A DNA stretch of 40,374 nucleotides from Verrucomicrobium sp. BvORR106 (GTDB lineage: Bacteria; Verrucomicrobiota; Verrucomicrobiia; Verrucomicrobiales; Verrucomicrobiaceae): assembly GCF_000739655.1 (NCBI RefSeq), contig NZ_BATR01000151.1, forward strand, positions 1-40,374, given 5' to 3'. Position 1 is the first letter of the stretch. Every line of letters begins with the position of its first letter. The translations under genes and the position numbers were made by a program. Below are positions 170 through 24,751 of the stretch, one piece after another. Under the pieces are notes generated by a model that was given only the letters and a program-made list of their open reading frames with translations, was not told the origin of the DNA and did not search any database.

Positions 170-409
170 CTTCCCAACGCAACGCCAACCAGAAAAAGGA
201 GGCGGGGTTTCCAACCCCGCGGGCGAACGGAGCCAAGGAAGCCCTTGGACGATTGCATCCACTCACCCGGGATGAGGTCAGCAGTTATTCGACCGATCCG
301 CCTCCTTTTCATCTCCAACATAAAAGAACCTTGCTCGCCCTCTCCCCCGCCAATCCCCCCTCGACCTGCCCCACCCATGCATTCAAGCATCCTCACCCCA
401 ATTTCCCCT

Positions 410-424
410 TGCGACTGAGTCGCA
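410..424. promoter_or_regulatory. Fur-box-like 7-1-7 palindrome before the fecI-like gene
   Basis: TGCGACT-G-AGTCGCA is a perfect 7-1-7 inverted repeat ending 39 bp before the sigma-factor start. Fur sites are described as 7-1-7 repeats (TGATAAT-N-ATTATCA), and this site keeps the TG, A, T and symmetric positions but has GC-rich variants. Similar TTGC-nCTGAG strings precede the AraC gene (11489) and the DNRLRE gene (13351). Assignment to Fur is inference. Confidence 0.45.
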
Positions 425-463: not shown

Positions 464-988
464 ATGCCAGAAGCCGGTCATCCCCCCATCATTCAGGAGG
501 TCCTGCCCGATTATGACAGGCTGCAGTCTTTCTTCCACGGTCAGGTGGGTTGCCAACATGAGGCGCAGGATCTCACCCAGGAGACCTTTACCCGGGTGCT
601 CTCCTGGCAGCCCAAGGCCCAGGTCACTCAGCCTCGCAGCCTCCTGTTCCGCATCGCCCGCAATCTGCTGATCGACCGCTCCCGCTCCCACGCGAGGACG
701 CAGCAGGTGCAGGTGCCTCTCACGCAGGAGCGCCTCGCTGAGACAGCCAGCACGATCGCCCCGCCGGATCAGCATTTCGCGGCGCGGGAACAGCTCCGGA
801 AGGTGCAAACAGCCGTGGCAGCCCTGCCCGAGCGTTGCCGTGAAGTCTTCATCCTCAATCGCTTTGGTGGCCTCTCCTACCCGGAAATCGCGGACCGTCT
901 CGGCATCGCTCCCAGTACGGTAGAGAAGCACATGATCCGCGCTTTGGCGGCCTGCCGGGCCACCATGGATGACGGCCCTCAGGCATAG
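464..988 (+). CDS. ECF RNA polymerase sigma factor, FecI-like
   Basis: A 174-residue sigma-70 family protein that should direct RNA polymerase to iron-starvation promoters. Region 2 spans about residues 16-82 (HEAQDLTQETFTRVL, then RSLLFRIARNLLIDRSR). Region 4 spans about 107-163, with LPERCREVFILNRFGGLSY and the helix-turn-helix EIADRLGIAPSTVEKHM. The spacing, length and VEKHM ending are typical of FecI-type ECF factors. The ATG at 464 is the first in frame. A FecR-like gene follows 81 bp downstream on the same strand, the usual fecIR order, and a TonB receptor with a signalling domain lies beyond it in convergent orientation. A Fur-box-like palindrome upstream (410-424) fits iron repression. 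The exact symbol is not assigned because the cognate siderophore is unknown. Confidence 0.93.
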   Translation: MPEAGHPPIIQEVLPDYDRLQSFFHGQVGCQHEAQDLTQETFTRVLSWQPKAQVTQPRSLLFRIARNLLIDRSRSHARTQQVQVPLTQERLAETASTIAPPDQHFAAREQLRKVQTAVAALPERCREVFILNRFGGLSYPEIADRLGIAPSTVEKHMIRALAACRATMDDGPQA

Positions 989-1069: not shown

Positions 1070-2098
1070 ATGGATTCCCGTCGCCCCCACTCACCTCACG
1101 TTCCCGCGCCATCTGGCCATGGGACCAAGGCGGTGCGTGATCTGGCCATGCACTGGCTGGTGCGAAAGCTGAACCCCGCAGAATGGACGGCCGAGGACGA
1201 AAAAAACCTCCAGCAATGGCTGACCCTCCGCCCTGAGCACCACAACGAGTACCTCGCCGCCCAGGCCGCGCTCTCTCTCATGAGCCAGCCTGGGGCGTTC
1301 TCAGCGGATGAGGTCGCCCGGGTGTTGAATCGCCCGTCCGCTCCCGCAACATCTTCCGCATCACGCCGCCGCTGGGTCGGCCTGGCCGCAGCGGCCGCCA
1401 TCGGTGTGGCCGCCACGGGAGCCTGGATCGCCCTCTCCCAGCAGAAGACCTATTCCACCGGGCTCGCCGAGACGAGGCAGGTCACCCTGCCCGATGGCAC
1501 CACAGTGTATCTGGATGCGCAGTCATCTCTGCGCTACAGCGCCTCCGCATCAGGTCGCAACGTGCAGCTGGACCAGGGCACGGCTGTCTTCGAAGTCGCC
1601 CCCAATCACTCGCCCTTCCTCATCACGACCGGCTCCTGGACCGTGCGAGATATCGGCACCACTTTCCAAGTCCAGCTCCGCAGCGGTCCCACGGATACAG
1701 CGCTGGAAGTCAGCGTGGCCGAGGGTGAGGTGGAACTCGCCTCCACCCGCCATCCCGAAACCCCTCCGGTCAGACTGCTGGCGGGCGAGGAAACCACCTG
1801 GAACTCCAGCGGGGCCCAGCCCGCTGCCAGGGGTCGCGCTCCGGAGCGGGTGGACTTTGCCCCCTGGAGGGAAGGCCGTCTCCGCTATCGCAATCAACCG
1901 CTCACCCACGTGCTCGCTGATCTGCAACGCTATCACCCCGGCCGCCTGGTGCTGGCGGATCCGGAACTCGGTCAAATGACGGTCACAGGGACCATCTCCA
2001 CCAGAGATCTGAAGCAGGCCTTCGCCACCCTGGAGCAAGCCCTCCCCGTACAGTTCGACTCCGCCGGTGGCGGAGAAGTGCGCATCACCCGGCGTTGA
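1070..2098 (+). CDS. FecR-family anti-sigma/sigma regulator
   Basis: A 342-residue inner-membrane regulator that would carry the signal from an STN-bearing outer-membrane receptor to the FecI-like sigma factor. Residues 20-70 form the cytoplasmic FecR N-terminal domain (AMHWLVRKLNPAEWTAEDEK, LTLRPEHHNEY). One membrane helix lies at about 103-121 (VGLAAAAAIGVAATGAWIAL). The periplasmic FecR domain is at about 130-230 (VTLPDGTTVYLDAQSSLRY, VRDIGTTFQV, VSVAEGEVEL). The C-terminal 80 residues (RYRNQPLTHVLADLQRY, GTISTRDLKQAFATLEQAL) resemble the STN-like end that contacts the receptor. It lies 81 bp after the sigma factor and ends 19 bp before the end of the convergent receptor gene. The 19-bp gap contains the palindrome ATCCGCGGAT and no clear terminator. 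Confidence 0.93.
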   Translation: MDSRRPHSPHVPAPSGHGTKAVRDLAMHWLVRKLNPAEWTAEDEKNLQQWLTLRPEHHNEYLAAQAALSLMSQPGAFSADEVARVLNRPSAPATSSASRRRWVGLAAAAAIGVAATGAWIALSQQKTYSTGLAETRQVTLPDGTTVYLDAQSSLRYSASASGRNVQLDQGTAVFEVAPNHSPFLITTGSWTVRDIGTTFQVQLRSGPTDTALEVSVAEGEVELASTRHPETPPVRLLAGEETTWNSSGAQPAARGRAPERVDFAPWREGRLRYRNQPLTHVLADLQRYHPGRLVLADPELGQMTVTGTISTRDLKQAFATLEQALPVQFDSAGGGEVRITRR

Positions 2099-2117: not shown

Positions 2118-4523
2118 CTAGAACCGGATCACCACACTGGCCTGCACCTGCAGCGGAGGCTCAGGGTAGATCAGTGCTCCCTGGCTCTGGTATCCCCGCT
2201 CGCTTGTCAGGTTTTTGAAATTCACCTGAGCCTGCCAGCGCTCCCGGCGGTAGTACACCGCCGCATCCCAGCGCCAGGCGGAGGGGAGGATGACGGACTT
2301 CTCCTGCAGGGTGGCTGGACTGGTGCCAGCATAGGCCAGCCCAGTGCCCAAACCAAAGCCCTTGAGCGGCCCCGACTGCCACTCGTACGTGGTCCAGAGC
2401 GCGCCTTCATGCTCGGGCACACCAGCCAGCGGCGTTCCTGCCGGGATGTCCGGATCTTCGCTCACCCGGGCATCGGTGTAGCCGTAGTTCACTCTCACAT
2501 TCCAGCCCGGCCGCAGGGCACCCGTCACATCCAGCTCCAGCCCACGGCTCTTTTGCTCCCCTGCCGTGGTCACGTATTCCGGATTGACCGGGTCGGTCAC
2601 CAGCACATTGGCTTTTGTGATTTCATAGACCGAAAGCGTCGCCGCCAGCTTCTTCTCCAGAAGGTCAAGCTTCACCCCGGCTTCCAGTTGCTCACCCTTC
2701 TCCGGAGGGAGCGCCACCTTGTCGCGATTCACCCCAAAATTGGGCGAGAAGGCGTGGGACCATCCGGCGAACAGGGACAACAGCTCCCACGGCTGGTAGA
2801 TCAGCCCCACCCGCGGGCTCCAGGCCTCATGCTCCAGCGTCCGGCCCAGCAAGAGCTCGCGCGTGCGGAAGCAGTCATGCCGCAGTCCCGCCAGCATTTT
2901 CCATTGAGGGGAAAGCGTAATGAGATCCTGCACAAAGAGCCCCACGGAGTCCGTGCTATAGCCATCCAGCGGAGCAAACGCCGGACGGGATAGCGGCGCT
3001 CCATACACGGGCGAGAGGAAGTCGATGGAGTCCATCGCCATGAACCCCATTTCATAGCGGAATTCATAGCGGGCCAGCTCCACTCCTGCCAACAGCTCAT
3101 GCGCCAGGCCGCCCGTATGGAAGGCGCCGCTCACCTCATTCTGCAGAGTGTAGTTCTCAGACCGCTCATGGCGGGCGGTGGCCTGACGCAACACCGTGCG
3201 ATCATCTGCCGCCACCGCGTAGGGTTGGGCAAAGTGGCTCTCCTGGTCACTGACAATGGCCGCAAAGCCACTCCGGAACTCCCAGGCCTCACCCAGCCTG
3301 TGTTTCAGTTCATAGGCTGCCCGCCACGCATTGGTCTCCGCATGATTCCCAGGCTCTCCCAGGAAACGGCTCTCTGGCACCTTCAGAGCTTGAGGCACGG
3401 CCAGCAGGCCGCGGTCAAACACATAGTCATAGCGATGGTACTCACCTAGAACCGTGAGGGAGGTGTCGGGGCCAATCTGCCACGTCACCGCCGGGGCCAG
3501 AAACAGGGACTCCGCTCCGACATAGTCCCGATGGCTGTCCGCATCTTCGACGGACGCGTTTAGCCGATACGTCAGCGGCGCGGCTTGATCCTGCTCTTGG
3601 GGCTCGACCAGGGTCCCTCCCAGATCCAGGGAAGCCCGGTACAGGTTTTCAGACCCACCCGTGAGAGTCAGTTCACGGATGCGCTGGGGCACCGGCCGTT
3701 TCGAGAGATAGTTGACCATCCCACCCGGCTGTCCTCCTCCATACAAGACGGAACCCGGCCCCTTGAGAAACTCCACCCGCTCGATCCCGGCCAGTTCCAC
3801 CGGTGAGAGAAAGGAAAAGTCCTTGAAGCCATTCCGGTAAGTGGTGTCTGTGCCGAAACCACGAATGAAGAAATCTCCGCTGGTGATACCGCCGTAGCCG
3901 GTGAACGCCTGCACACCGGGCACCACATCTGCCACCTCCGCGGGCCGCAGCATGGCCCTGTCCTCCAGCAGCTCACGCGGCACCACATTCACCGTCTGGG
4001 GCACATCCCGCAGCGGCACATCCAGCCGAGTCGCCGTGGTGGCACTCTCCACCGCGTACCCCCGGTCTGCATAGTCCACGACCAGCACCTCGTTCACCTC
4101 ATGACGTGCGGCATCATCCGCATCTCGCGTGCCTTCCCACTCGGTCGCAGGCACCACCGCCACGGCGCTCACCCCTGTTCTCCGGGCACTCAGACCCGCA
4201 TCCTGAAGCAGACGCTTCAGCGCCTCCTCTGCAGTCATCGTTCCCTGCAAGCCAGGAGCCTTACGGCCCGCCAGCACCTCACCGCGAGCTACCACGTCCA
4301 CCTTGGTCGCACGGGAGTAGGATTCCAGCGCATCCGCCAGATCTCCGGGGGATTGTGAAAAGACGTAAGTCCCCTCATACTCCGCCCGAAGCGCAGACAC
4401 ACTCCCCAGGCAAAACAGCAGAACCAACCCAGCCACCGCACGCCGACGCCGCGCGGTACGCCCCATGCCTCTGCCAGCAACCCCCAGACGGGTAGCTTGG
4501 CATGGACTTGGGGCTATTCTCAT
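2118..4523 (-). CDS. TonB-dependent siderophore receptor with N-terminal STN signalling domain
   Basis: An outer-membrane ferric-siderophore receptor and signal transducer of up to 801 residues. A signal peptide follows RTARRRR (hydrophobic GLVLLFCLGSVSA). The STN domain (about 52-126; YVFSQSPGDLADALESYSR, GTMTAEEALKRLLQDAGL) is the part that contacts FecR-type proteins. A TonB-box-like EVLVVD precedes the plug (about 165-280; LRDVPQTVNVVPRELLEDR, RVEFLKGPGSVLYG, PGGMVNYLSKRP). The barrel fills the rest and ends in the canonical terminal Phe (VIRF). The ATG at 4523 is 16 bp after the PepSY gene stop. An internal ATG at 4466 (MGRTARRRR) gives a more usual signal peptide and may be the real start. 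It is the third gene of a leftward operon and the likely partner of the convergent FecI/FecR pair. Confidence 0.93.
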   Translation of the reverse strand: MRIAPSPCQATRLGVAGRGMGRTARRRRAVAGLVLLFCLGSVSALRAEYEGTYVFSQSPGDLADALESYSRATKVDVVARGEVLAGRKAPGLQGTMTAEEALKRLLQDAGLSARRTGVSAVAVVPATEWEGTRDADDAARHEVNEVLVVDYADRGYAVESATTATRLDVPLRDVPQTVNVVPRELLEDRAMLRPAEVADVVPGVQAFTGYGGITSGDFFIRGFGTDTTYRNGFKDFSFLSPVELAGIERVEFLKGPGSVLYGGGQPGGMVNYLSKRPVPQRIRELTLTGGSENLYRASLDLGGTLVEPQEQDQAAPLTYRLNASVEDADSHRDYVGAESLFLAPAVTWQIGPDTSLTVLGEYHRYDYVFDRGLLAVPQALKVPESRFLGEPGNHAETNAWRAAYELKHRLGEAWEFRSGFAAIVSDQESHFAQPYAVAADDRTVLRQATARHERSENYTLQNEVSGAFHTGGLAHELLAGVELARYEFRYEMGFMAMDSIDFLSPVYGAPLSRPAFAPLDGYSTDSVGLFVQDLITLSPQWKMLAGLRHDCFRTRELLLGRTLEHEAWSPRVGLIYQPWELLSLFAGWSHAFSPNFGVNRDKVALPPEKGEQLEAGVKLDLLEKKLAATLSVYEITKANVLVTDPVNPEYVTTAGEQKSRGLELDVTGALRPGWNVRVNYGYTDARVSEDPDIPAGTPLAGVPEHEGALWTTYEWQSGPLKGFGLGTGLAYAGTSPATLQEKSVILPSAWRWDAAVYYRRERWQAQVNFKNLTSERGYQSQGALIYPEPPLQVQASVVIRF

Positions 4524-4539
4524 GAATCAAAAATGGGAC

Positions 4540-5718
4540 TCACAGCCTGCTTGCCGTCCCACGTTGATCAACCTCCTTGCGCGAGATTCGCTGACTCGAT
4601 TTGCCCCGAATTGTCCGGCTTCGTTTCCAGTACATCATCACACCCGTCCACGCCAGCACACCGGGAGACAGCCCGAGCACGCACCAGAGGATCTTGATGG
4701 GCAGCCCGCCAAAGGTGCCAAAATGCAGCGGCCCCATCATGACCTCAAACTTGCCCCACCAGGAGGCATGGCGGTAGTCCGTGAGTTCCACCAGACTGCC
4801 TGTCTCCGCGTGAAAATGGATCGTGCTGTTGTAGTCCCCCACCAGCCGGTTGCCCGGCACGACGGAGCCAATCAGTCGCATGTGTTCATTCCGCGGCGGC
4901 AGGCTCAGGTACACGCGATTGGGGTCCAGCCCGGGCAGCAGTCGCGCAGCCTCTTGCACCAGTTCGTTGATGGAGAGCTGTTGGTTGTACATCCTGGGTC
5001 GGGCCACCGCTTCCTTCTCTCCCTCCGTCTCTTGTTGGCTCGAACCATACTTCCCCAAAACAAGTTCCTTGAAGACCGGGAGGTTCCACCAGGCTCCGGT
5101 CAGGCCCAGGATCAGATTGAAGACGACCGAACTGATGCCCACCATCTTGTGGAGATCCGAGAAGAAGATGCGCGCACTGCTGCGCCAGCGCAGGGTGAAG
5201 AGCGTCTTCCAAAATCCCCTGTAAAGGTAGATGCCTGAAATGCCCAGTAGGCAAAGCAACAGCGCCAGCACCCCGGCGAAGAAGATGCCCCAATCCCCCA
5301 GCAGGAGGCTGTAGTGAAGCCTCAGCGCCCATTCGAGGTAAGGTGAGGCCCAGCTCTCCGGTTCATCCGGCAGCACCTGTCCTGTACTCGCCGCCACCCG
5401 GATCCAGTCCCACTCCTGGGGATTATCCTGCTTGGTTACGGCGGCGGCATCCACGCCTTTGCCAAACATGATCGTATCCCAGGCCACCACCTCCCGGCCC
5501 GCCAACTGCTGCCGTACTTTTTGAAACAGCGTATCGTAGTCCAGCCGGGCGCGAACGTCCGGATTCACCACGACCTTCTCCTCCGCTGCCGGGGCCTTGA
5601 GCAGGACCTCCAGCTCTGTGCGGAAGACGAGAAGGGACCCGGTCAGCCCGATGAGGAGCAGACCGAGTCCCGAAACCAGCCCCATCCACGAATGGAGCAT
5701 CCAGAGACGTTTGCGCAT
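4540..5718 (-). CDS. PepSY-associated transmembrane protein (putative siderophore-iron reductase type)
   Basis: A 392-residue inner-membrane protein with about four membrane helices (residues 12-32, 144-166, 191-212 and near 345-368) and two periplasmic PepSY-type stretches. Family hallmarks are the N-terminal LHSWMGL, the central RLHYSLLLGDWG and SDLHKMVGI, and the late MGPLHFGTFGGLP, each with a conserved His. Members commonly sit beside TonB-dependent siderophore receptors and are thought to act in release or reduction of imported ferric siderophore. That function is inferred from family and context, not from a catalytic motif. It starts 7 bp after the stop of the upstream receptor gene and ends 16 bp before the next, so the three genes almost certainly share a transcript. 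Confidence 0.9.
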   Translation of the reverse strand: MRKRLWMLHSWMGLVSGLGLLLIGLTGSLLVFRTELEVLLKAPAAEEKVVVNPDVRARLDYDTLFQKVRQQLAGREVVAWDTIMFGKGVDAAAVTKQDNPQEWDWIRVAASTGQVLPDEPESWASPYLEWALRLHYSLLLGDWGIFFAGVLALLLCLLGISGIYLYRGFWKTLFTLRWRSSARIFFSDLHKMVGISSVVFNLILGLTGAWWNLPVFKELVLGKYGSSQQETEGEKEAVARPRMYNQQLSINELVQEAARLLPGLDPNRVYLSLPPRNEHMRLIGSVVPGNRLVGDYNSTIHFHAETGSLVELTDYRHASWWGKFEVMMGPLHFGTFGGLPIKILWCVLGLSPGVLAWTGVMMYWKRSRTIRGKSSQRISRKEVDQRGTASRL

Positions 5719-5725
5719 GCTTGCG

Positions 5726-7885
5726 TCAGAACTTGAACGTCACCGAGGCCTGCACGTTGAACGGCGCATCCGGATAGATGAGATAACCCTGGCTCTGGTA
5801 GATGTTCTCGTCGCTGATGTTCTTGAAGTTCACCTGGGCAGACCAGTTGTCCTTCTTGTAGAACACCGAGGCATCAAAGCGCCAGTAGCTGGGCAGATCC
5901 ACCCCGTTCCCCGGCATGGTCGCAGGACGGGCTCCCACGTAGAAGGCCCCTGCCCCCACGCCGAAACCCTTGAGCGCGCCGTCCTGGATCTCATAGCTGG
6001 ACCAGAGCCCGGCCTGATGTTCCGGCACCGCCGCCAGCTTGGTCCCGTTCGGGATGGTGGTGTCCTCGCTCACATAGGCGTCCGTATAGGAGTAGCTGGC
6101 CACGACGTTCCAGCCCGGAATGGGGCTGCCCAGGAGGTCGAACTCCGCACCGCGGCTCTTCTGCTCGCCAGTCAGGATGCTGTAGTCAGGGTTCTTGGGA
6201 TCGGTCGTGAGGACATTCTCCTTGGTAATGTCATAGAACGCGATCGTACTCGCGAGCTTGTTCTTCACCCACTCCACCTTCACGCCAGCCTCGAACTGCT
6301 CCGACTCCTCGGGGTCGAAAGCGCTCCCACTCTGGCTCAAGGCGAAGATGTTCGGACTGAAAGCGGTGGACCATCCGGCGAAGATGGACACCGGCTCCCA
6401 GGGTTGATACACGATCCCCACGCGAGGGCTCAGTGCCTTGTCGGTCTGCTCCGGCATGGCACCGCCATATTGCGACTCCACATAGTCATAGCGCAGGCCG
6501 GCCAGCAGCTTGAGCTGGCTGGTCAGCGTGACCTGATCCTGCACGTAGATGCCCAGCGCATCCGCTCCGTATTCCTCCCAGGGATCAAACGACACCTTGC
6601 CAAGGCTGGCACCGTACTTCGGATTGAAGAGGTCAATCGATGCCAGCGGCCCGGACCCGATATTGTAGCCAAAGGAGTAGCGGGCCAGCTCCACGCCCAC
6701 CAGAGCGTGATGCTCCACCGAGCCCGTGTTGAAACGTCCGCTCAACTCGTTCTGCAACGTGTAGTTCTCAGACTTCTCATAGCGACGGGTGCTGCCCCGC
6801 AACACCGTCCGCCCGTCTGCGGCAAGCTCGCTTGCCTGGGCGAAGTGGCTGTGCTGCTCGCTCTGGATCGCGGCAAAGGCACTGCGGAATTGCAGATTGT
6901 CGCTGAAATTGTGGATGAACTCGTACCCAGCCCGCCAGGATTCCGTCTCCGCATAGCTCGATGGCTCACCGAGGAAGCGGCTCGTGGGCACCTGGAAGGT
7001 CTGCTTCACCGGCAGGAGACCGCGGTCAAACACATAGTCATAGCGCTGGAACTCGCCAAACACCGTCAGGGTGGTGTCGGGCGTGATGTTCCAGGTGACC
7101 GAGGGCCCGATGTAATAACTCTCGGACTCGTTGTAGTCCCGGTGGCTGCCGGCGTCCTCATAGGAACCTGTGAGGCGATACGTCAGTACCGGCTCGCTCG
7201 TGGGGCCATTCACAGGAGCCACGGCCTTCGGGTTCTTGGCGCTCACGGGTCCCGGAGTTCCGGGCACATCCCTGCTGATCAAGGTGCCGCCGAAGTCACC
7301 CGTCGCACGGTAGAGATCATAGCTCCCGTACGTGAAACCCAGCTCATTCAGCGAGTACGGCACCGGACGCTTGGAGACGTAGTTTACAATGCCGCCGGGA
7401 TTGTTCTGCCCATAGAGCACAGACGCAGGACCTTTCAGGAACTCCACTCGCTCCAGCGCCACCACATCCACGGGTGAGAGGAAACCGAAGTCCTTGAATC
7501 CATCGCGATAGGTGCCGCTGGAATCAAAACCGCGGATGAAGAACGAGCCGCTGGAGAGACCGCCGTAGCCGCTGGAGTACTGCACCCCGGGCACGTTGTC
7601 TGCTACTTCCTGCACCCGGGTCACGCCGCGGTCTTCCAAGACCTGCTTGGGGATGACGTTGATCGCCTGGGGAATATCGCGCAGCGGGGTGTCCAGCTTG
7701 GTAGCCGTAGTGGCTTCCGTAACGGCGAAGCTGCGCTCAGCATCAGCTGTGACCACCACTTCGGGAAGAGTTTCGCTATTCTGCGCGGTCTGGGCCTGCG
7801 CCGCCAGCGGCAGCAGCACGCCGGGAAGGCACTGCATCGCCAGGGAGATTCGCAGGAGTCGGGAGGAGAGGATTCCGTGATTCAT
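5726..7885 (-). CDS. TonB-dependent siderophore receptor without STN domain
   Basis: A 719-residue outer-membrane receptor for a ferric siderophore, from the ATG at 7885. That start gives a clean signal peptide (NHGILSSRLLRISLAM then PGVLLPLAAQAQ); the frame is open up to 8029 but the extra 48 residues do not look secretory. A TonB-box-like ETLPEVVVTA lies at 38-47. The plug is at about 65-170 (LRDIPQAINVIPKQVLEDRG, FFIRGFDSSGTYRDGF, RVEFLKGPASVLYG, NPGGIVNYVSKRP). The barrel ends in Phe (VTFKF). It is clearly paralogous to the third gene of the operon through plug and barrel but lacks the signalling domain. One paralog probably transports only, while the other also signals. First gene of the operon. 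Confidence 0.94.
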   Translation of the reverse strand: MNHGILSSRLLRISLAMQCLPGVLLPLAAQAQTAQNSETLPEVVVTADAERSFAVTEATTATKLDTPLRDIPQAINVIPKQVLEDRGVTRVQEVADNVPGVQYSSGYGGLSSGSFFIRGFDSSGTYRDGFKDFGFLSPVDVVALERVEFLKGPASVLYGQNNPGGIVNYVSKRPVPYSLNELGFTYGSYDLYRATGDFGGTLISRDVPGTPGPVSAKNPKAVAPVNGPTSEPVLTYRLTGSYEDAGSHRDYNESESYYIGPSVTWNITPDTTLTVFGEFQRYDYVFDRGLLPVKQTFQVPTSRFLGEPSSYAETESWRAGYEFIHNFSDNLQFRSAFAAIQSEQHSHFAQASELAADGRTVLRGSTRRYEKSENYTLQNELSGRFNTGSVEHHALVGVELARYSFGYNIGSGPLASIDLFNPKYGASLGKVSFDPWEEYGADALGIYVQDQVTLTSQLKLLAGLRYDYVESQYGGAMPEQTDKALSPRVGIVYQPWEPVSIFAGWSTAFSPNIFALSQSGSAFDPEESEQFEAGVKVEWVKNKLASTIAFYDITKENVLTTDPKNPDYSILTGEQKSRGAEFDLLGSPIPGWNVVASYSYTDAYVSEDTTIPNGTKLAAVPEHQAGLWSSYEIQDGALKGFGVGAGAFYVGARPATMPGNGVDLPSYWRFDASVFYKKDNWSAQVNFKNISDENIYQSQGYLIYPDAPFNVQASVTFKF

Positions 7886-8331
7886 GTTCGGTTGTTGAGG
7901 GAGAGCCAACAGCCGCTCACGAGCCACGGGGAATGAACCCGGGAACAGGCTGTCACCCCTCGCTGACGAAAATCCCGCCAAACACCTCCATACCATTTTT
8001 TCGGTTTCTGCATTTTGTCTCTCGATCAAAGCTCTTCCTCGAAGAGGATGCGGCTACAAGCCCAACGTTGGCGAGCTTCCAGCGAGTCTACGTTGGGTTG
8101 GTGAATGATGAATCTCTACTCCGAAGGAGTTGCGGCGGTCTGGAGATCCCGCAGGCCCCGCTCTCCCATTCAGTCACAAGCGATTGACATCCCCTCCTGC
8201 CCCTCCTATAACCGCGACGTGGCACCGCGCAGGCGAAGCGAGGTGCTCACGGGGATCAAAGTTCGCCGCTCCACTCCATCTTGCTGCCGCAGGCCGAAAG
8301 CCTGCTCTCGGCAGAGTCATCTGCTTTGGTC
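7886..8331. other. Divergent intergenic region with repeat copy A
   Basis: This 446-bp region lies between the divergent receptor operon and the G8-domain gene and should hold both promoters. I see no clear sigma-70 boxes and no Fur-box-like site. The main content is copy A of the 110-bp three-hairpin repeat (8031-8140). Confidence 0.55.
8031..8140. repeat. 110-bp three-hairpin dispersed repeat, copy A
   Basis: Starts GCTCTTCCTCGAAGAGG and ends GCGGCGGTC. It holds three successive hairpins: CTCTTC/GAAGAG with a CTC loop; CCCAACGT (8061-8068) with ACGTTGGG (8090-8097); and ACTCC-GAA-GGAGT (8118-8130). Copies at 13004-13112 and 33758-33867 have the same order and nearly the same length. No coding capacity is evident. 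Confidence 0.85.
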
Positions 8332-11077: not shown

Positions 11078-11523
11078 GGTGGTGTGGAACTGAGGTTGGA
11101 TGTCTGGCAGCTTTCGCTCCCTTCAATGAGGATGACGAACCATCGCGGCCGCCCAAGACATTCGGCGTCTGGATTCTAAAAAAAGGTTACTCCATACGCC
11201 AATCCCTGCCCTTTCGCCTTCGGGACAAATGAACACCCTTTAAGAAGATTCCGGCCACTTTGCGCCCAAGGTGCGAATCAACGGGGCTGGCAAACCCGGC
11301 CGGGTGGCTCGGGCAACCTTGCCAGTCCCAAAACACAGCACCGGGGCCGCAGACGGAAGTGATTGCACCGACTGCGGCCCCGACATGCTTCAGGGATTCC
11401 AATGCCAAAATCCCTGCGGCACGCTCCAACACCCAGCTTCAGCGTGACGAAAACGCCCCGCCGACTCGCACAAATCGAGACAAAATACTTGCAACTGAGT
11501 CTCGATAGCGCCATAAACGCCCC
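11078..11523. other. Divergent intergenic region with three hairpins and a Fur-like site
   Basis: This region lies between the VOC and AraC genes. It contains a 7-bp stem (CTGGCAA/TTGCCAG near 11286-11328), a perfect 11-bp stem CGGGGCCGCAG (11342-11352) with its complement (11372-11382), and an 8-bp stem CAGGGATT/AATCCCTG (11391-11416). A Fur-like TTGCAACTGAGTCTCG follows at 11489-11504. No gene of its own is supported. Confidence 0.5.
11489..11510. promoter_or_regulatory. Weak Fur-box-like site before the AraC gene
   Basis: TTGCAACTGAGTCTCG is very similar to the string at 409-424 (TTGCGACTGAGTCGCA) and to the start of the stronger site at 13351. It ends 13 bp before the AraC start. The right half-site is degenerate, so the call rests on likeness to the other two sites. 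Confidence 0.35.
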
Positions 11524-12405
11524 GTGCGTACTCCCCCTCCCAAATCCGAATGGCTTCACGGTTCCCTGGCTCAGGACGGCTTCCGGGTGCAGCAGATTCG
11601 CTTCTTTGCCGGTCGCGATGAGTCCCTCAGCCAGTACTTGAGCCCGAACACGCTTGCCCTGGCGGTGGTGTTCTCCGGGCATCAGTCCTTGGTGTTCCGT
11701 AACACGCGGCTTGAGGTCACGGCAGACCACGGCGCCATCCTGCAGCCGCAGTCCGGCCTGTACTGGACAGCCAGTGGCGGCCGCAACCACCGCATGGTGC
11801 TGGTAGAGCTGGGTGAGAAGATGCTCGTCCGCCTCCGTGGCATGGGCGACCACGCCACGCCGGTCTCGGAGGAAGCCCTGAACCACCCCCTCTTCCTCGA
11901 ACCGAAAGAATTCACCGTGCCAGCCAGCGTGCTAAGCCTGGCCCAGCAACTGGCCACGCCGCCTACGCACACCGCCTGCCTCCCCGTCTGGTACCAGGCC
12001 AAAGTCACCGAGCTCGCCTCGCTCACGCTCTTCAAGCCCGTGATGCAGCCGGGCGAGACCAGCACCATGGAAGTGAACCGCGAACGCGTGGACAAGGCCG
12101 TCTTCCTCCTGGAGCGCGACCTGGAAAATCCGCCCACGCTACAGATGCTGGCCCGTGAGGTGGGCTGCGGCCCCTTCTATCTCAGTCGTCTCTTCGCCAG
12201 CCAGATGGGCCGCACCATTCCCGAGTTGCTCCGCCAGCGCCGCATGGAACTCGCGGCCAAACTTCTCAGCACCAGCCGCGAAAGCATCAGCAACATCGCC
12301 CTGCGCGTGGGCTACGAGAGCTTCAGCGCCTTCACCCGCGGCTTCGTCCGTGAATTCGGCGTGACCCCCAGCGGTTACAGGAAACGTTGCCGGCAGGTGG
12401 CGTGA
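11524..12405 (+). CDS. AraC-family transcriptional regulator
   Basis: A 293-residue regulator with a variable N-terminal sensing domain (1-180) and a C-terminal AraC DNA-binding domain (about 187-288). The two helix-turn-helix units are LQMLAREVGCGPFYLSRLF (about 206-224) and ISNIALRVGYESFSAFTRGF (about 254-273), followed by REFGVTPSGYRKR, the standard family ending. The start is a GTG at 11524 with no obvious ribosome-binding site. Length and layout match the PchR/YbtA-like class, which often respond to siderophores. The Fur-like site just upstream and the neighbouring receptor operon support an iron role, but no ligand can be deduced. It is followed by nearly 1 kb of repeat-rich DNA. Confidence 0.92.
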   Translation: MRTPPPKSEWLHGSLAQDGFRVQQIRFFAGRDESLSQYLSPNTLALAVVFSGHQSLVFRNTRLEVTADHGAILQPQSGLYWTASGGRNHRMVLVELGEKMLVRLRGMGDHATPVSEEALNHPLFLEPKEFTVPASVLSLAQQLATPPTHTACLPVWYQAKVTELASLTLFKPVMQPGETSTMEVNRERVDKAVFLLERDLENPPTLQMLAREVGCGPFYLSRLFASQMGRTIPELLRQRRMELAAKLLSTSRESISNIALRVGYESFSAFTRGFVREFGVTPSGYRKRCRQVA

Positions 12406-13112: not shown

Positions 13113-13350
13113 TCTATCGCTGGGTACGAGTAAACAATCACCATCCGAAGCACAGACACCAGGCCCACCTTCCCCAACCTTGGCGCATCCTTGCACAACC
13201 CAGGGCAAGCACCTGCCAAGTTTCTGCGCACATTGCATCGTGAACAGCCGACGTCACGGCACGCGGTTAAACTAATTGCCTAGAACCGGCAATCAAAAGC
13301 GCCTTCAGAGCAAAGCGAGGCAAGCAGAAATCAGGAACGCGTCGACTCTA

Positions 13351-13372
13351 TTGCACCTGAGAATCATTATCG
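13351..13372. promoter_or_regulatory. Strong Fur-box-like site before the PEP-CTERM operon
   Basis: TGAGAATCATTATCG (13358-13372) matches the Fur 7-1-7 consensus TGATAAT-N-ATTATCA at 12 of 14 positions. A second, weaker 7-1-7 register (TGCACCT-G-AGAATCA) begins six bases earlier, as in classic overlapping Fur sites. It ends 25 bp before the DNRLRE gene start, where it could cover the promoter. Confidence 0.6.
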
Positions 13373-13397: not shown

Positions 13398-14044
13398 ATG
13401 AAACTCCCCCTGTCCGCCTTCCTGGCCTTTGGGCTTGCCGCGTCTTCCCTGTCTCCTACGGCCCTCAGCGGAGCCATCGTCATGGCCACCCAGGATACCG
13501 ACTTCTACCGGTTCCTGAACATCCCCAGCAGCAGCACGGGAGATCTGGACATCGCCAGTGAGTTTGCCAATCCGCACACCTTCCGGAGCTTCATTGAGTT
13601 CGACATCGCTTCCCTGGGTTACACCGCGGGGCAGCCCGTCACTTCGGCACAGCTATGGCTCTACTCGTCAGCGGTCACAGCGGGCGGCACCATCCGGGTT
13701 CAAGACATCACGTCAGACTGGTCCGTGGGTGGGTTCACCTGGGACACCCAGCCCACGGTGGGCAGCTTTCTCACCGACGCCACCGTCTCGACTGCAGGCA
13801 TCTGGTACAGCTTCGATATCACGTCCCTCGTCCAGCAGTGGGTAAACGACCCACGTCCAACTACGGCATCCGCCTCATGGCCCCGGATACCGCCCAGCTG
13901 AAGTTCATCTCCAACGACGCCACCACTGGCAACACAGAGTACCGCCCCTATATCGCGGTGACTCCTGAACCCGGCAGAAGCCTGCTGCTCGCCGCCGCAC
14001 TGAGCACCGTCACCTTCCGCAGACGGCGAGTGCGCACGGCCTGA
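13398..14044 (+). pseudogene. Frameshifted DNRLRE-domain PEP-CTERM protein
   Basis: After a signal peptide (KLPLSAFLAFGLAASSLSPT) the first frame encodes a DNRLRE-type domain of disaggregatase/beta-sandwich surface proteins (ATQDTDFYRF, FRSFIEFDIASL, VTSAQLWLYSSA, IRVQDITSDWSVGGFTWDTQ, WYSFDITSLVQQWVNDP). It then leaves frame near 13853 and stops at 13901. The -1/+2 frame continues it perfectly: SNYGIRLMAPDTAQLKFISN, EYRPYIAV, then the PEP-CTERM anchor TPEPG plus a hydrophobic stretch and RRRR. Adding one A in CCACG (to CCAACG) restores D-P-T-S-N-Y and a 215-residue protein. This may be a true mutation or a sequence error. It heads the group that includes the prepilin-like gene 48 bp downstream. 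Confidence 0.85.
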
Positions 14045-14092: not shown

Positions 14093-14953
14093 ATGAAACC
14101 CTTCCCCGCCCCCACCCGCCTCCACCACGGTTTCACCCTCATGGAGCTGCTGGTGGTCACCGCCATCATTGCCGCCCTCTCCGCCCTGGCATTCGGAGCC
14201 TTCAATGCTGCCACCACCCACGCCCGCAAGGCAGCAGAAATCGCCGCCGCCAAAAGCCTGATCAGCGCTTATCTCCTCTATCCCAGCGACAACAACGGAG
14301 AGCTGATGGTGGCGCACTACGAGGGCTCCAGCCCTGATCTTGATGCCCGGGACTACACCCTGCCAGACGGCACCACGCTGGGCAGCGCAGAATTGCACCG
14401 CTACCCCTTCCGCCTCGCCCCCTACATGCAGGACAAGATTGAGGGCACCCTGCTGGTGAACCGCAACAAAGATCAAATTGCCGAAGCCTTCCCAGGCAGC
14501 CAGTTCCACTACGGCACCAGCCTCTGCCCCGCCCTTGGCATCAACTACTACTATGTCGGTGGTTACAAGGCGGACAACGAAATCGCCGGTGCCACGGATT
14601 GCGCCACGAACCTCATGCAGGTCAGCAAGCCAGGCTCCCTGCTGGTCTTCGCCTCCGCCTTCACAGAGATTGGGGACAAACGCATTGAAGGCCGCTACGG
14701 CGTCGAGCCGCCGTACTTCCGGTCCAAGCTTTGGGACGGCAGTCTCCATGTCGATGCCCGCTACGGCGGGAAGGCCGTCACCGCTTTCATGGATGGCAGT
14801 GTGCGACTCATGACCATCGATGAGCTGCGCGACATGCGCTACTGGAGCGTTCGTGCCGCGGAGGCGGACAATGCCAACTACACCGTGGCCCCCGTGGCCA
14901 GCACAGGCGTGGGCGGTGGCAATACCGGTGGTGGCAGAGGGGGGCGTCGTTGA
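14093..14953 (+). CDS. Prepilin-like protein with type IV pilin N-terminus (pseudopilin type)
   Basis: 286 residues. The N-terminus HHGFTLMELLVVTAIIAALS is a classic class III signal: prepilin peptidase would cut between Gly13 and Phe14, with Glu at +5 (residue 18). The rest is the H-X9-like soluble domain common in Verrucomicrobiota and Planctomycetota pseudopilins (SLISAYLLYPSDNNGELM, GINYYYVGGY, YGGKAVTAFMDGSVRLMTID). The tail is Gly/Arg-rich (GVGGGNTGGGRGGRR). It is probably a secretion-system or surface-fibre subunit. No pilus machinery is adjacent. It sits between two PEP-CTERM genes and its TGA overlaps the next ATG (TGATG), so translation of the two is probably coupled. Confidence 0.9.
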   Translation: MKPFPAPTRLHHGFTLMELLVVTAIIAALSALAFGAFNAATTHARKAAEIAAAKSLISAYLLYPSDNNGELMVAHYEGSSPDLDARDYTLPDGTTLGSAELHRYPFRLAPYMQDKIEGTLLVNRNKDQIAEAFPGSQFHYGTSLCPALGINYYYVGGYKADNEIAGATDCATNLMQVSKPGSLLVFASAFTEIGDKRIEGRYGVEPPYFRSKLWDGSLHVDARYGGKAVTAFMDGSVRLMTIDELRDMRYWSVRAAEADNANYTVAPVASTGVGGGNTGGGRGGRR

Positions 14954-17478
14954 TGAAGTTTCCGTACTCCACCACCCTCCGACTCGCCCTGACTGCCAGC
15001 GCCATGCTGGCTGGCGTGAGCGGCTCGTTCGCAGGCGTCTTGTACAACCCCACCACGCCGACAGCCAACGGGTTCTATACGCCTACCCTAGACTACGAGA
15101 ATCTCTACTATGAGTACAGTGCGTGGGACGTCTTCTACGCCCCCCATACGGAAGGCAACTACCCAGACCTCTTTGCCCCCTGGGGCGGAGAGGAGGCCCC
15201 GGGAGGCGGCTGGCAGCCCGTACACCGGCCCAGCTCATTCCCAGGGTCACCTGTGTACAATCCTGCCAGCGCGCTTGCCTACTGGGACCTGCGAAATCCG
15301 ACCATCAAGCAGACCGGCACCACCAGCACCTTCATCATTGGCCCCGACGTCACCGGGAACATCTACAGCTTTCAGAGCAAGACCAGCTACGTGCTCAGTG
15401 ACAATCTGGCGGACAGTGGCTCCCCTTCGGCCAACTTCACCCAGATCGGCGGCGTCATCTTCCAGTTTCAAACCGATGGCACGAACGTCGATTTCTCCTC
15501 TCTCCGCCTGGTGTGGAACGACGGGAGTCAGGACCATGTGATCTACGCGACCGAGGCCGAATACCTGCGGGAATTCAGCAGTGGTGAGAGCGGCAGCACC
15601 CACTGGAGCGCGGGCTCCGGGTATGGCAACCGCGTGGCGATACAGTGGGACCTTAGCAATCTCACGACGCTTCTGGGTGCCCCTGTCACCTCTTACAAAA
15701 TTCTGTGGGACTCCGAGAGTTCCAGCATGTCCTTCCAGAAGGCCGACCTCATTGTCACGGAGGACTATGATGCTGGCATCCCCCATGCCGCCATCTGGAC
15801 TGGCACCACTGGCAACTGGACGCAGAGTGCCAACTGGTCACTGAAAGAAGGCAGCGGCCTCACCCTCCCGGAAGCCAACGGAAACCTTCGTTTTCAAAAC
15901 ACCGGCACCGCCACTGTCACACTCAACGATGGCAACCATACCGTCGGCGAGCTCATCTTTGAAAACCCGGCGGACGTCACCATCAACTCCGCCGCGGGCC
16001 AGAACTACCGCCTCACCAGCAACACTGGCATCACGACCCGCTCCACTGCCACCGGCACCTACACGATCAACACCGGGCTGCAGCTGGGGGCGCTGAATTT
16101 CTTCGAGATCAACGCGGGCACCGTCGTCATGAACGGGGCCATCGCCGGATCCTACGGACTGGTCAAGACCGGGCAGGGCACCCTCCATCTGGCGACCGGA
16201 AACACCTTCACCGGCTTCCTCGCGCTGCAAGAAGGAACGCTGCGAATCTCAGGAAACAACACCTACTCCGGAGCCACCACTGTGCTCAACGGACGCATGA
16301 TCCTGGCTGCTGATGCCGGTCTGACCGGGGCTCTGGGCAGCAACAATCTGGCGATCGCCCTCGGTGCGGATGCCTCCCTCTTTCAGTATGTCTCAGAAGG
16401 CTCCACCCTCCTGGCCGAGTTGATCCTGGATGGCAACCGCACGCTATCCCGTGGCGTCTCCTTGGCCGCTGGCGATTTCGGCAAGCGCCTGGGCGCAATC
16501 AATTCCACCGGTACCGGCGCGGTCATCTCCGGTGGCATCAGCCTCACCTCCACCGCAGCGGATCCAGACAGCCCTACATCCGCCGCAGGAAGCGTCTTTT
16601 TCACGGCCCAAAGCGCCACTGATGTGCTGAATCTGACCGGGGCCATCACCGGCGGATCCACCACCAAGACAGTGACGCTAGATGGCCTGGGCACCGTGGT
16701 GTACGGCGGTGCAAACAAGACTTACAGCAACGCCACTGTGGTGGAGAAGGGACGCCTCGTCATCGCGGCGGGCACCTCCCACACCGGCAACGGTAACTAT
16801 ACCGTGAAAGCCGGGGCGAAGCTCCAGATTGATGGCACGTTGGGCGGCACGGGGACCCTGAATATGGAAGCAGGCACCCTCAGTGGCAAGGGCATCGTCC
16901 AACGTGCCGTCATCTTTGACCAGGGGGACCGCCTCGCCCCTGGGAACAGCACCGGCACCCTCACCTTCACCCAGGGCATCACCTTCGGCGGCGGCGGCGG
17001 TTATTTATGGGAACTCCAGGATGTGGATGCCGGCATCGGCACCGGCTGGGACCACACGGCGGTTCAGGGCAGCCTCACCATTACCGCCACCAGTTCGGAC
17101 CGTTTTTTCATCAGCGTGCAATCTCTTGCCTCCACCGGAAACAGCGGGCTGGTGCAGGACTTCGACGGGGTGAACGGACTGTATGACTGGGTCCTGCTGA
17201 CAGCGTCCAGCGGCATCACCGGATTCTCCGCCGACAAGTTCACCATCGATCTCGGCTCCTTCGCCAACGCCTACTCCGGAGGATTCTCCCTGAGCCAGCT
17301 GCTCAATGGAGATGGCAGCACGAGCCTGGTGCTCCACTACAGTGCCGTGCCTGAACCCGGACGATTCCTTCTCCTCACCGCCGCCACCGCCGTGCTGTTG
17401 TTCCGCCGGCGGCGGCCCCAGCCACGGCGCTCCGCCAGTGGGAGCCAGTCCTCACTGGACGGTCTCCCCTGCGCGTGA
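14953..17478 (+). CDS. Autotransporter-associated beta-strand repeat protein with PEP-CTERM anchor
   Basis: 841 residues from the ATG overlapping the previous stop. Signal peptide LRLALTASAMLAGVSGSFAG. Residues 30-275 form a unique N-terminal domain. From about 279 (AIWTGTTGNWTQSANW) the protein is a beta-helical passenger with repeats such as GNTFTGFLALQEGTLRISG and NNTYSGATTVLNGRMILA. It closes with the conserved GRLAPGNSTGTL-like module (DRLAPGNSTGTLTF) and the anchor VPEPGRF-hydrophobic-RRRR near 798-820. After the arginines it has an unusual extra tail of about 20 residues ending DGLPCA. PEP-CTERM proteins are processed by an exosortase, not encoded here. Predicted extracellular or outer-surface; ligand unknown. 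Confidence 0.92.
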   Translation: MKFPYSTTLRLALTASAMLAGVSGSFAGVLYNPTTPTANGFYTPTLDYENLYYEYSAWDVFYAPHTEGNYPDLFAPWGGEEAPGGGWQPVHRPSSFPGSPVYNPASALAYWDLRNPTIKQTGTTSTFIIGPDVTGNIYSFQSKTSYVLSDNLADSGSPSANFTQIGGVIFQFQTDGTNVDFSSLRLVWNDGSQDHVIYATEAEYLREFSSGESGSTHWSAGSGYGNRVAIQWDLSNLTTLLGAPVTSYKILWDSESSSMSFQKADLIVTEDYDAGIPHAAIWTGTTGNWTQSANWSLKEGSGLTLPEANGNLRFQNTGTATVTLNDGNHTVGELIFENPADVTINSAAGQNYRLTSNTGITTRSTATGTYTINTGLQLGALNFFEINAGTVVMNGAIAGSYGLVKTGQGTLHLATGNTFTGFLALQEGTLRISGNNTYSGATTVLNGRMILAADAGLTGALGSNNLAIALGADASLFQYVSEGSTLLAELILDGNRTLSRGVSLAAGDFGKRLGAINSTGTGAVISGGISLTSTAADPDSPTSAAGSVFFTAQSATDVLNLTGAITGGSTTKTVTLDGLGTVVYGGANKTYSNATVVEKGRLVIAAGTSHTGNGNYTVKAGAKLQIDGTLGGTGTLNMEAGTLSGKGIVQRAVIFDQGDRLAPGNSTGTLTFTQGITFGGGGGYLWELQDVDAGIGTGWDHTAVQGSLTITATSSDRFFISVQSLASTGNSGLVQDFDGVNGLYDWVLLTASSGITGFSADKFTIDLGSFANAYSGGFSLSQLLNGDGSTSLVLHYSAVPEPGRFLLLTAATAVLLFRRRRPQPRRSASGSQSSLDGLPCA

Positions 17479-17581
17479 ACGGCGTTCCGCGTCCACCATC
17501 TTCCATCCAGACATCCCCCTCCACCCGGCATCTGCCCAGTGCCGGGCCAGACTCCCATCCTTGATCGGTTCTCTAAGTTCT

Positions 17582-20500
17582 ATGAAACGACCCAAAACAT
17601 CCGCCATGACGCGGCTGTTGCGCAGACGTCACGTGGCCTCCCTTGCGGCGTCCATCACCCTCCTTGCCCACACCGTGACCCAGGCGGCCCCTTATGCCCT
17701 GAACCTCACCGGCACCATCTCCTATGACGGCTGGGCCAACCTGTTCAACCCTCCCTACAGTGGCATGACCTTCCCCGGCAGCGGGGCCTGGCCTACCACA
17801 GGAGCCTGGACATCCTACGATCCCGATGGTGCAGGCGGCGCGGCAGCCGTGGGTGCCATCGGTTCCAATACTGTCGGCTCTGGGGATGCTCTCCTGTACA
17901 AGATCAGCAATGGCACTGATGGAGGGCCCTATCCCGCGACTGGTTCCATCTACTTTGGTGGCTTCTCCGGTAATGCCAACGTCAACGGTGGCACACTCGG
18001 CGTGGTGGACACCACGCCTCTCACCGGCGTGAAGACGGTAGCCTTCCAGGTGGATATCGGCGAGGCCACGGGATACGACTTCTACAATCACAAACTGCCC
18101 ATCCTCCAGTACACCACCCTCGCCGGTGGCAGTACCCTCTACACGCTGGATCCCGCCCAATCCCAGCTCCTGCTCCAGATCTACACGGGGGATATCTTGA
18201 TGCCTACCGGCTACGAAGACCTGTACCGCAACACCTGGGGCCTTCAATTCGACGTGAGCGGCATCACGGACACGATCACCTCCCTGCAACTCTCCTTCAC
18301 CGGGGTGCAGCATGCCCAGCTGTATGCTCTGCAGCTGGATCAATCGACCGACAAATACACCACCAGCGTCTTCGCCACCGCCTCCACCTGGGATGCCGGA
18401 GGAAGCAGCATGGTGTGGTCAGACACGGCCAACTGGAACAACAATACCAAGCCCCTGACCGGCAAGGCAGTCCAGTTCTCTGCTGGCACCAGTGCCATCC
18501 TGGACGCCAATCAAACCGTCCAAGGCGTCACCATCAACAGCCCCGGCGCCTTCTCCCTCACCAGTCAGGGCGGTGCCGTGCTCACGGTGGGCGAAGCCGG
18601 CATCACTGTCACGGGCAGCGCCCCGGCCACTCACAGTATCTCCGCACCCATGGTGTTCTCCTCACAGCTCAACATCATTTCAGTGGACGCTGGATTGGAG
18701 CTGAATGTGACCGGCAACCTTACCGCACCTGGATTCTACAAGAGCGGCGACGGCACACTGCGACTCTCAGGAAATAACACCCTGCTCCAAAACAGCCAAA
18801 ACCGCGTCATCGTCAACGGTGGCGAAGTTTACCTGTCCGGTGTCAATACCTACGCGGGAACGGGCACCCTGGAGTTTGAGGTCAAGAAAGGCATCGTGCA
18901 CCTGATCGGCGGCGACAATCGCCTGAGTTCCAACATCAGTGTGGATCTCGTCAGCCGCCGGGTGATGACGGATGCCACCATTGTGACTGTAGAGAGCGGC
19001 CATCTTGTCTTGGGTGACGCCAGTGGGAAAGTGGATCAAACGGTGGGCGGCATCAGCGCCGAGGCGACAGTCGTCTTCCAGACTGCGACCAGCACCACCT
19101 CCAATGACGCCGTCTCCAGTTCCAGCATCACGGGTGGCAATGCCGCCATCTCCACGCTGACGGCCAACGTCATGGGCAGTTCCTTGTTCACCTACCTGGG
19201 CAGCCTGGGTGGCGCTGGCTCCAACGAGAATCAGTTGGCCTTTGTGAAGAAGGGCTCTGGCACCCAGGTCCTGGGTGGGGTGAGCACTTACGTGGGCGAT
19301 ACCATCGTGCAGGAAGGCGTGCTGCGCCTCAGCAGCACCACCGCCCTCTCCAGCTCCAGCCGCCTGCTTCTCTCAGGTGGCGTGTTGGAACTCGCCGCCG
19401 GGAACTTCACCCGCTCACTCGGAACCGGTGCTGGCCAAGTTCAACTCACCGGCAACACCGGCTTCTCGGCCTACGGTGCCGTGCGCAAGGTCAACCTCGG
19501 CGGCGCAGGTGCCAACGTGACCTGGGGGGCCAATGGATTCCTGGGAGACAACTTGAAACTGGTTTTGTCCTCCACCGTCTCTGACAACACCGTGGAATTC
19601 GAGAACCCGATCGCCCTCGGCTCAACGACACGCACCGTCCAGGTCAACAACGGCAGCGCCGTCGTCGACGCCCGCCTCACGGGTGCTGTCAGCGGAAGCG
19701 GCGGTTTTGAAAAGACCGGCCTGGGTACCCTGGAATCTACCGCTGCCAACACCCACACCGGCGGCACCACCGTCAAGGAAGGCACGCTGGCCCTGGCTGG
19801 CTCGGCTGGCTCGGTCAAAGGCGATGTCGAAGTCGCGGCAGGCGCCACCTTCCAGCTCACCAACACGGAGGTCGCAGCCAACTCAAACCGCGTAGAAGAC
19901 TCGGCCACCGTCCAGCTCAACGGCAGCATCCTGAACTTCAACAACGCCACCACCGGCACGATCCAGGCCTTCAGCGAGACCATCGGAACGCTCGACTTGG
20001 AACGAGGAGCCAACGTGGTCACCACGAGTCGCGCCGCAGACGGCAGCACCGCGGTGCTCATGCTCAACCAACTGACCCGCGACGGCGGTGCCACGGTCAA
20101 CTTCAACGGCACCAGTGTCGGCGTAGATTCCCGTAACCAGATCAAGTTCGCCAGCGCCCCCACCCTGGACAACGGCATCCTCGGTGGCTGGGCCACCGCG
20201 GGCAATGAGTGGGCCACCTACGGCACGTATGGCGTCACCGCCCTCACCTCCTACACCACCACCGGTGAATCCACCTGGACAGCGGCGGACAACGTGAAGT
20301 TCAGCAACACCACTGCCACCACCGTCACCCTCACCGCCTCCCGGCAGGTGAACTCCCTGAACATGGTTGCCCCGACCTCCGGCTCGACGCCCAACACGCT
20401 CAATCTGGGGAACCAGACCCTCCGTGTGGAAAGCGGCGGCATCCTCACCAGTGGCGGCAACACCTCCCGCAAGCTGGTCATCAGCCAGGGCACCCTCACC

Positions 20501-21500: not shown

Positions 21501-21528
21501 GGCAACCACTTCATCGTGGTTGCCTTTT
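21501..21528 (+). terminator. Intrinsic terminator after the 1277-residue protein
   Basis: GGCAACCAC, loop TTCATC, GTGGTTGCC then TTTT. This perfect 9-bp stem lies 86 bp after the preceding stop and 28 bp before the kelch gene ATG, and should separate the two units. Confidence 0.85.
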
Positions 21529-21555
21529 CATCCCCATCCGTTTCAATTTTTTTCC

Positions 21556-22729: not shown

Positions 22730-22739
22730 GTCCCACCCC

Positions 22740-23408: not shown

Positions 23409-23492
23409 TCCCCTATCATTCCCCCACCGCTATCCCACCCGGGGCCCCGGCATTGTTTGCCCGGCGGCCCCGCTTCATTCACCCCCATCGCC

Positions 23493-24743: not shown

Positions 24744-24751
24744 CCCTCATA

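Follow-up and report, generated by a model that had tools for sequence, protein, structure and literature searches.

Putative Fur-type boxes before a sigma factor gene, an AraC regulator gene and a surface-protein gene group in Verrucomicrobium sp. BvORR106

Classical Fur operators follow the consensus GATAATGATAATCATTATC, and PchR is an AraC-type activator that works with ferric siderophore bound and whose PchR boxes have a known order and role. According to passages of two papers, PepSY-like clusters, many of them with DUF4198 genes, are Fur-repressed and tied to periplasmic ferric reduction (PMC8238504, PMC12004947), and a passage of a third paper describes DUF4198 genes of Alteromonas as iron-responsive (PMC7190382). 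Within the open-licence literature, as judged by titles, abstract beginnings and passages, we found no paper on the iron control of PEP-CTERM genes and none that links Fur-type boxes with the surface gene group described here. The window, by which we mean the whole stretch of 40,374 nt that was analyzed, carries three box-like sites. We give a probability of about 0.7 to the reading that all three are Fur operators and that the third would control a group of surface and probable metal-binding protein genes running from 13398 to at least 24743.

The earlier note on this DNA had reported TTGC-nCTGAG strings at 409, 11489 and 13351, each just before a gene start, and all three were found, on the plus strand. 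Box 1, TTGCGACTGAGTCGCA (409..424), has a perfect 7-1-7 core at 410-424 and precedes a FecI-like gene, with 39 bp between the box end and the ORF start (424 to 464). Box 2, TTGCAACTGAGTCTCGATA (11489..11507), precedes an AraC regulator gene at a distance of 19 bp (11504 to 11524), and box 3, TTGCACCTGAGAATCATTATC (13351..13371), lies 26 bp before the surface operon (13371 to 13398). The exact string TTGCNNCTGAG occurred four times in the window vs 0.62 expected, a number that none of 100 shuffles reached; three of the copies directly precede genes, and the fourth is located at 16879 on the minus strand, within ORF 14950-17478. When one mismatch was allowed, the count was at the chance level (13 vs 12.5 expected). 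The description of site 1 (410-424) as a perfect 7-1-7 palindrome was confirmed; since the window holds six such palindromes vs a mean of 3.7 over 100 randomized windows, this property alone was given little weight and was rejected as a proof by itself.

Box 3 matched TGATAATCATTATC at 13 of 14 positions and the classical Fur consensus at 14 of 19, the best match in the window; the next unrelated place reached 11, and the best place per randomized window (n = 30) reached 11-13. The Fur likeness attributed to this site earlier therefore stood, although the count of 12 of 14 given at the time was slightly low. Boxes 1 and 2 agreed with the classical consensus at only 10 of 19 positions. The idea of a single shared box thus held for the common string at the three sites but not for the finer pattern, as sites 1 and 2 fit a clade motif and site 3 is closer to the classical consensus. 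Across the genome, the pattern TGCNACTGAGTCNCA, derived from the window, showed no enrichment in total when up to two mismatches were tolerated (89+66 vs 56+79); with at most one mismatch it was found at five places outside the window, two of which precede receptor units (C80, C103). An Rfam search gave no matches. The strings taken alone are suggestive; the weight of the case rests on other genes and other genomes.

The FecI/AraC matrix was trained on nothing but boxes 1 and 2 with their orthologues, so that no receptor site entered it, and its scores were compared with a background of 91 stretches picked without regard to genes (1.82 Mb). The genome encodes 18 receptor plug domains, two of them within the window. 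Sites scoring at least 18 were observed before 5 of the 16 TonB receptors outside the window (580 bp upstream of each) and nowhere in the 1.82 Mb of background, and at a threshold of at least 16 the five receptor upstream regions compare with 0.010 expected. No site of at least 14 was present in the 580 bp upstream of 11 of these 16 receptors, and 10 to 11 receptors showed nothing notable. The earlier note had made its reading depend on enrichment of the motif before known iron genes, and the siderophore receptor upstream regions indeed lay far above the background. All seven boxed receptors tested with TIGR01783 passed this siderophore-type model, the receptors of C103 and C118 being outside the tested set.

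The receptor matrix comprised six sites, namely the five best of a width-19 discovery run and L036, which was preferred over L044, L041 and L034, of equal or higher score, for its likeness to the window pattern. Because this choice was mildly circular, the tests were run again with the 5, 6 and 9 best sites taken strictly by rank, as well as with a matrix free of receptor sites. With the receptor matrix, box 2 scored 24.2 and box 1 scored 19.7, ranking first and second in the window, and none of 3,636,724 background positions was as high; both the ranks and the empty background were kept over four choices of receptor training sites. In the 2.19 Mb of the genome examined, 11 sites scored at least 18, as against a mean of 1.65 and a maximum of 5 for permuted matrices, and no such site fell in the 91 gene-blind background stretches. 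These 11 consisted of boxes 1 and 2, the six sites used for training and three others. Of the latter, one precedes a unit of an AraC gene followed by a receptor gene, another lies where a unit of PepSY followed by a receptor begins, and the last stands ahead of a histidine kinase gene, beyond which a receptor plug is encoded on the same strand. At a threshold of at least 15, the genome total of 24 was inside the permuted range (4-30). An IucA/IucC-FhuF siderophore synthetase gene has three weaker boxes (12.9-13.8) at its start, and PepSY and AraC genes are likewise preceded by the motif.

The pattern TTGCRAHTGMGWCTCA, taken from the receptors, gave 96 matches vs 35 control matches in 38 genomes, and 8 vs 1 in this genome. 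Thirty loci were kept from the 96 matches (29 in relatives and one own), four of them with a receptor plug domain within the flanks, and the 10 downstream proteins tested comprised three AraC, one PepSY and one PQQ protein and five others. Unsupervised motif discovery was not robust. In the first round, width 19 returned the box and width 16 another motif; on repetition, only two of the six runs, both with seed 1 (widths 19 and 21), recovered the box. Likelihoods ranged over 67.6-79.0 across the widths and over 71.2-75.2 at width 19, overlapping with those of four randomized sets (64.5-73.3), for which reasons this approach was not counted as proof.

Because the siderophore-type boxed receptors, the PepSY genes and, weakly, the IucA/IucC synthetase share the motif, an iron signal read by Fur is its likeliest interpretation. 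The genome has three Fur-family genes (PF01475), of which the one on C116 comes closest to PDB chains of Fur. Judged by their sequences, sites 1 and 2 are very probably Fur-type boxes, and site 3 appears to be one as well, with good but lesser confidence. That all three boxes are chance strings in a GC-rich window is most improbable, for although the one-mismatch count equaled expectation, the two-mismatch genome count equaled the control and the discovery runs were unsteady, such an origin fits neither the excess of exact copies, nor the enrichment before receptors seen with a matrix built from no receptor site, nor the footprints over three species.

Boxes of at least 17 were found at 2 of 16 ORFs of the PEP-CTERM class outside the window vs 12 of 1630 others (Fisher 0.0075); since one of these two stretches had been chosen for its pattern match, the enrichment of this class is a lead only. 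A fourth box candidate in the window (38875..38893, minus strand) scored 18.1 with the FecI/AraC matrix, ranking third and above box 3, and 16.8 with the receptor matrix, and its copy in the sister genome G001 is weaker (13.3). It lies 239 bp before ORF 37209-38636 (DMFA2_C domain, minus strand), with ORF 39056-39988 (NMT1-like, plus strand) on the other side. Two box-like sites were also observed elsewhere before PEP-CTERM genes. One (17.0; L076, G000:C103:4336-4354) is 21 bp before the gene of an adhesin with an ice-binding-like domain, and G001 and G003 share most of the about 75 bp that surround it, the DNA further upstream having diverged. The other (17.9; L083, G000:C31:22848-22866) precedes a propeller-like protein and is kept in G001 and G003, but the region is conserved overall.

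Box 1 stands before a gene for an ECF sigma factor of FecI-like type (464..988, plus strand; Pfam sigma regions 2 and 4), on which the NCBIfam FecI models matched below their cut-offs, and the next gene on the same strand encodes a FecR-like anti-sigma factor (1070..2098; PF04773 and FecR_C). The minus strand then carries a TonB siderophore receptor with an STN domain (2118..4523; Pfam, and TIGR01783 at 311 bits with a cut-off of 223.5), a PepSY_TM membrane protein (4540..5718; PF03929) and a second TonB siderophore receptor (5726..8029; Pfam, and TIGR01783 at 346 bits). The ECF sigma factor, FecR and the STN receptor thus occur together at this locus, as assigned by Pfam, which is the gene combination of FecI/FecR surface signalling. 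Box 1 is unchanged in G001 and G003 although its flanks have diverged. The region 8281-10413, between the receptor and AraC genes, encodes a protein with G8 and CEMIP beta-helix domains, which to our knowledge are rare in bacteria.

The AraC-family regulator (11524..12405, plus strand; HTH_18) has orthologues in 7 of the 68 family genomes, our own included. A box precedes the gene in all six genomes with readable upstream DNA, again including our own (scores 18.5-25.3); G006 was left out of this count because its contig begins inside the gene. In G001 and G003, box 2 is part of an identity block that ends abruptly on its upstream side, and the AraC protein is itself 99% identical; in G008 the AraC gene is on a separate contig from the operon and its own promoter retains the box. 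Together with the constancy of box 1, this distribution supported the view that the sigma factor and AraC promoters have boxes in common. The N-terminal part of the protein, where a PchR-like regulator would have its siderophore-binding domain, gave no Pfam match, and NCBIfam matches stayed under their cut-offs and covered the C-terminal part alone. An inverted repeat with the arms ATCGAGAC and GTCTCGAT at 11474-11506 overlaps box 2 and is identical in G001 and G003.

A candidate operator for this regulator, GCAA-N6-GCAAGCAG (13310..13327, plus strand), was recognized upstream of box 3; it has two GCAA steps 10 bp apart, a spacing that would be compatible with the paired HTH motifs of AraC-family proteins. 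A hand count placed the pattern GCAA-N6-KCAAGCA 29-43 bp upstream of the box in 6 of 6 genomes keeping the surface-operon promoter, and it was absent at the G003 locus. The pattern, which was built from the surface-operon promoter sites themselves, had 15 matches in all, six of them at that promoter, and the nine elsewhere were at the control level (10 in the control). On these sequence features, we lean towards the GCAA repeat being the AraC operator, with the surface operon as the presumed target.

Taken alone, box 3 is evidence of moderate strength. With the FecI/AraC matrix it scored 15.4 and ranked fourth in the window, a level reached by 3 of 1,818,362 background positions; the receptor matrix gave it 12.2 (rank 5, and rank 5 to 32 across training choices). 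The first gene behind it encodes a PEP-CTERM protein with a DNRLRE/CBM96 domain (13398..14044), whose reading frame is broken in this assembly and split over two frames; G006 has an open CBM96-like gene at the same place, and in G001 this gene was not found at the corresponding place and the promoter leads directly to the prepilin gene. Next comes a prepilin-like protein (14093..14953; N_methyl), for which 4 of 37 other genomes contain relatives with E values of 1e-20 or better. It is followed by two PATR-repeat PEP-CTERM proteins (14950..17478 and 17306..21415, of which the true start is probably further in), a Kelch propeller with a likely signal peptide (21520..22578), which also occurs in G001, G003, G004, G008, G014 and other phyla, a DUF4198-like protein (22728..23408) and a PQQ-type propeller protein (23457..24743; PQQ_2), with a further PATR protein beyond it. 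All seven of the genes given with coordinates are on the plus strand. PEP-CTERM sorting signals over the cut-off (TIGR02595) are located at 13961, 17347, 21320 and 29984. The operon had earlier been placed at 13398-17478; this extent was too short, as the co-directional group runs to at least 24743 and might form a single transcript. Promoter and terminator scans of 13200-33000 were near the chance level.

The comparison with relatives supported the proposal that a Fur-type box precedes the surface operon, since boxes are present at the orthologous promoters of related genera. The operon box is kept in four relatives, with receptor-matrix scores of 10.5 in G001, 22.4 in G004, 18.5 in G006 and 20.7 in G008, and at one reduced locus, that of G014, where only Kelch and DUF4198 are present (22.4). 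For G004, G008 and G014, no background position was as high with any of five matrices, and for G006 the number was 0 to 14 positions. The G001 copy is weaker than box 3 itself in most clade matrices, and G003 has lost box 3 and most surface genes, with Kelch, DUF4198 and PQQ retained. It is conceivable, if unlikely, that only boxes 1 and 2 are genuine sites for Fur and that box 3 is a chance resemblance or a decayed box, the surface operon being run by AraC alone. The low receptor-matrix score of box 3 beside those of the other two boxes, lower still with other training choices, the greater constancy of the AraC-like element and the ongoing rearrangement of the locus in G003 and G014 would agree with such a history, but box 3 is the best classical Fur match of the window, its counterparts in G004, G008 and G014 have no equal in the background and that of G006 has few, and boxes also stand before similar operons in other phyla. 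We thus continue to read box 3 as a probable Fur operator.

PF10670 matched the ORF of the DUF4198-like protein at 31.7 bits, under the cut-off of 34, and a PDB sequence search with this protein gave no credible match. Its AlphaFold model (mean pLDDT of 83.8) was closest in fold to metal-bound Zcp (Zn, Cu or Co) and to a DUF4198 protein with bound Ni, with Z of about 17; Z was 17.1 to 9gcb over model residues 27-225, and the alignment to the Ni-bound DUF4198 protein starts at His27. This residue is kept in 13 of 13 aligned rows and is predicted to form the mature N-terminus after signal cleavage. The fold match of the model to metal-bound structures and the conservation of His27 make metal binding likely. 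The structural relatives hold Zn, Cu, Co or Ni, without Fe, and together with the three PF01475 genes of the genome they could point to another Fur-family protein, Zur- or PerR-like, as the owner of the boxes. We consider such an owner rather improbable, given that the seven boxed receptors tested are of the siderophore type, that an IucA/IucC siderophore synthetase gene with an FhuF domain is boxed, though weakly, and that box 3 follows the classical consensus of the iron-responsive Fur. The boxes are therefore best taken as putative operators of Fur itself.

Alignment of the Kelch protein yielded 80 named loci, the closer half mostly from planctomycetes, of which 37 were tested for boxes, 24 with a full 5 kb upstream and 36 with more than 100 bp downstream; the tested set excluded L257, which is G001 itself, L291 and L293, where the contig starts with Kelch, and the weaker L297-L336. 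At 14 loci, the ORF with the Kelch match is at least 500 residues long and also carries, towards its N-terminus, a match to a DUF4198 model (E 4e-22 to 2e-8); what the window has as two genes is thus a single protein at those loci. A box of at least 18 was present within 5 kb upstream of 8 of the 37 Kelch loci and downstream of none, as against a mean of 0.1 and a maximum of 1 for permuted matrices. Sites above the best of the 1.82 Mb background were seen at 10 loci upstream and one downstream with the FecI/AraC matrix, and at 8 to 12 upstream and none downstream with other receptor matrices. Per transcription unit, a site of at least 15 was assigned to 10 of 32 Kelch units vs 9 of 228 other gene starts, of which 5 or 6 share their box with a Kelch unit. 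No box of at least 15 was detected at 24 of the 37 loci of other phyla, so that either the link is not a general one or the box has another form there.

A prepilin motif was found upstream on the same strand at 13 of 35 Kelch loci, and a PEP-CTERM protein comes first after the box at two, L264 (over the Pfam cut-off) and L271 (just under it). PepSY_TM occurs at one planctomycete locus (L283), and TonB receptors lie upstream at three loci, none of them over an NCBIfam subfamily cut-off. At another planctomycete locus, a second very strong box (26.0; L267, 2460-2478) precedes another DUF1559 prepilin gene. By their likeness to the boxes of our genome, the planctomycete boxes might answer to iron. 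As a speculation against which we would still bet, Verrucomicrobiota, Planctomycetota and other phyla may share an iron-starvation module of a metal-binding Kelch-DUF4198 unit, prepilin (DUF1559-type in planctomycetes) and PEP-CTERM surface proteins, all controlled by Fur-type boxes and providing pilin-based or surface-anchored metal capture beside a TonB receptor or, in planctomycetes, replacing one.

Based on these data, we propose that Fur would bind and block the three promoters when iron is present. In the absence of iron, the box 1 promoter would release FecI/FecR, leading to the switching on of the receptor-PepSY-receptor genes (2118-8029), the box 2 promoter would release the AraC-family activator, and the box 3 promoter would release the co-directional group from 13398 to at least 24743. 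Activation of this group would probably come from the AraC protein bound to GCAA-N6-GCAAGCAG just upstream of box 3, perhaps when it carries a ferric siderophore in the manner of PchR. The job of the operon is likely to be metal capture, binding or reduction at the surface and in the periplasm, and the role of the surface proteins in this is a guess. The analysis provides a clade-specific Fur-type motif that is usable in Verrucomicrobiales, ties PEP-CTERM, PATR, prepilin, Kelch and DUF4198 genes of obscure purpose to probable iron control, and offers a testable proposal for surface metal handling in these bacteria and in planctomycetes.

Compared with known systems, the arrangement resembles the 19-bp or 7-1-7 Fur regulons in having a palindromic box before siderophore receptors and FecI/FecR and a Fur gene in the genome, but it differs from classical Fur regulons in its clade consensus, which is about TTGCRAYTGMGTCTCA rather than GATAATGATAATCATTATC, and in targets that include PEP-CTERM, prepilin and Kelch genes. 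As in Fec/Fpv-type signalling, an ECF sigma factor, FecR and an STN receptor occur with a box upstream of the sigma gene, whereas here two receptors and PepSY are encoded on the opposite strand. The AraC gene with its Fur-type box and the conserved repeat upstream of the box of its presumed target recall PchR-type regulators, and a similar arrangement exists elsewhere in this genome, where a boxed AraC gene precedes a FauA-like receptor; the likeness is one of architecture only, and the presumed target here is a surface operon and no receptor. The PEP-CTERM signals over the cut-off at four places in the window are like those of PEP-CTERM/exosortase surface proteins. Finally, DUF4198 under a Fur-type box, with PepSY in the same regulon, is shared with the PepSY/DUF2271/DUF4198 iron-reduction clusters, while in contrast to those clusters DUF4198 here stands beside Kelch, to which it is fused in many planctomycetes, and beside prepilin and PEP-CTERM proteins.
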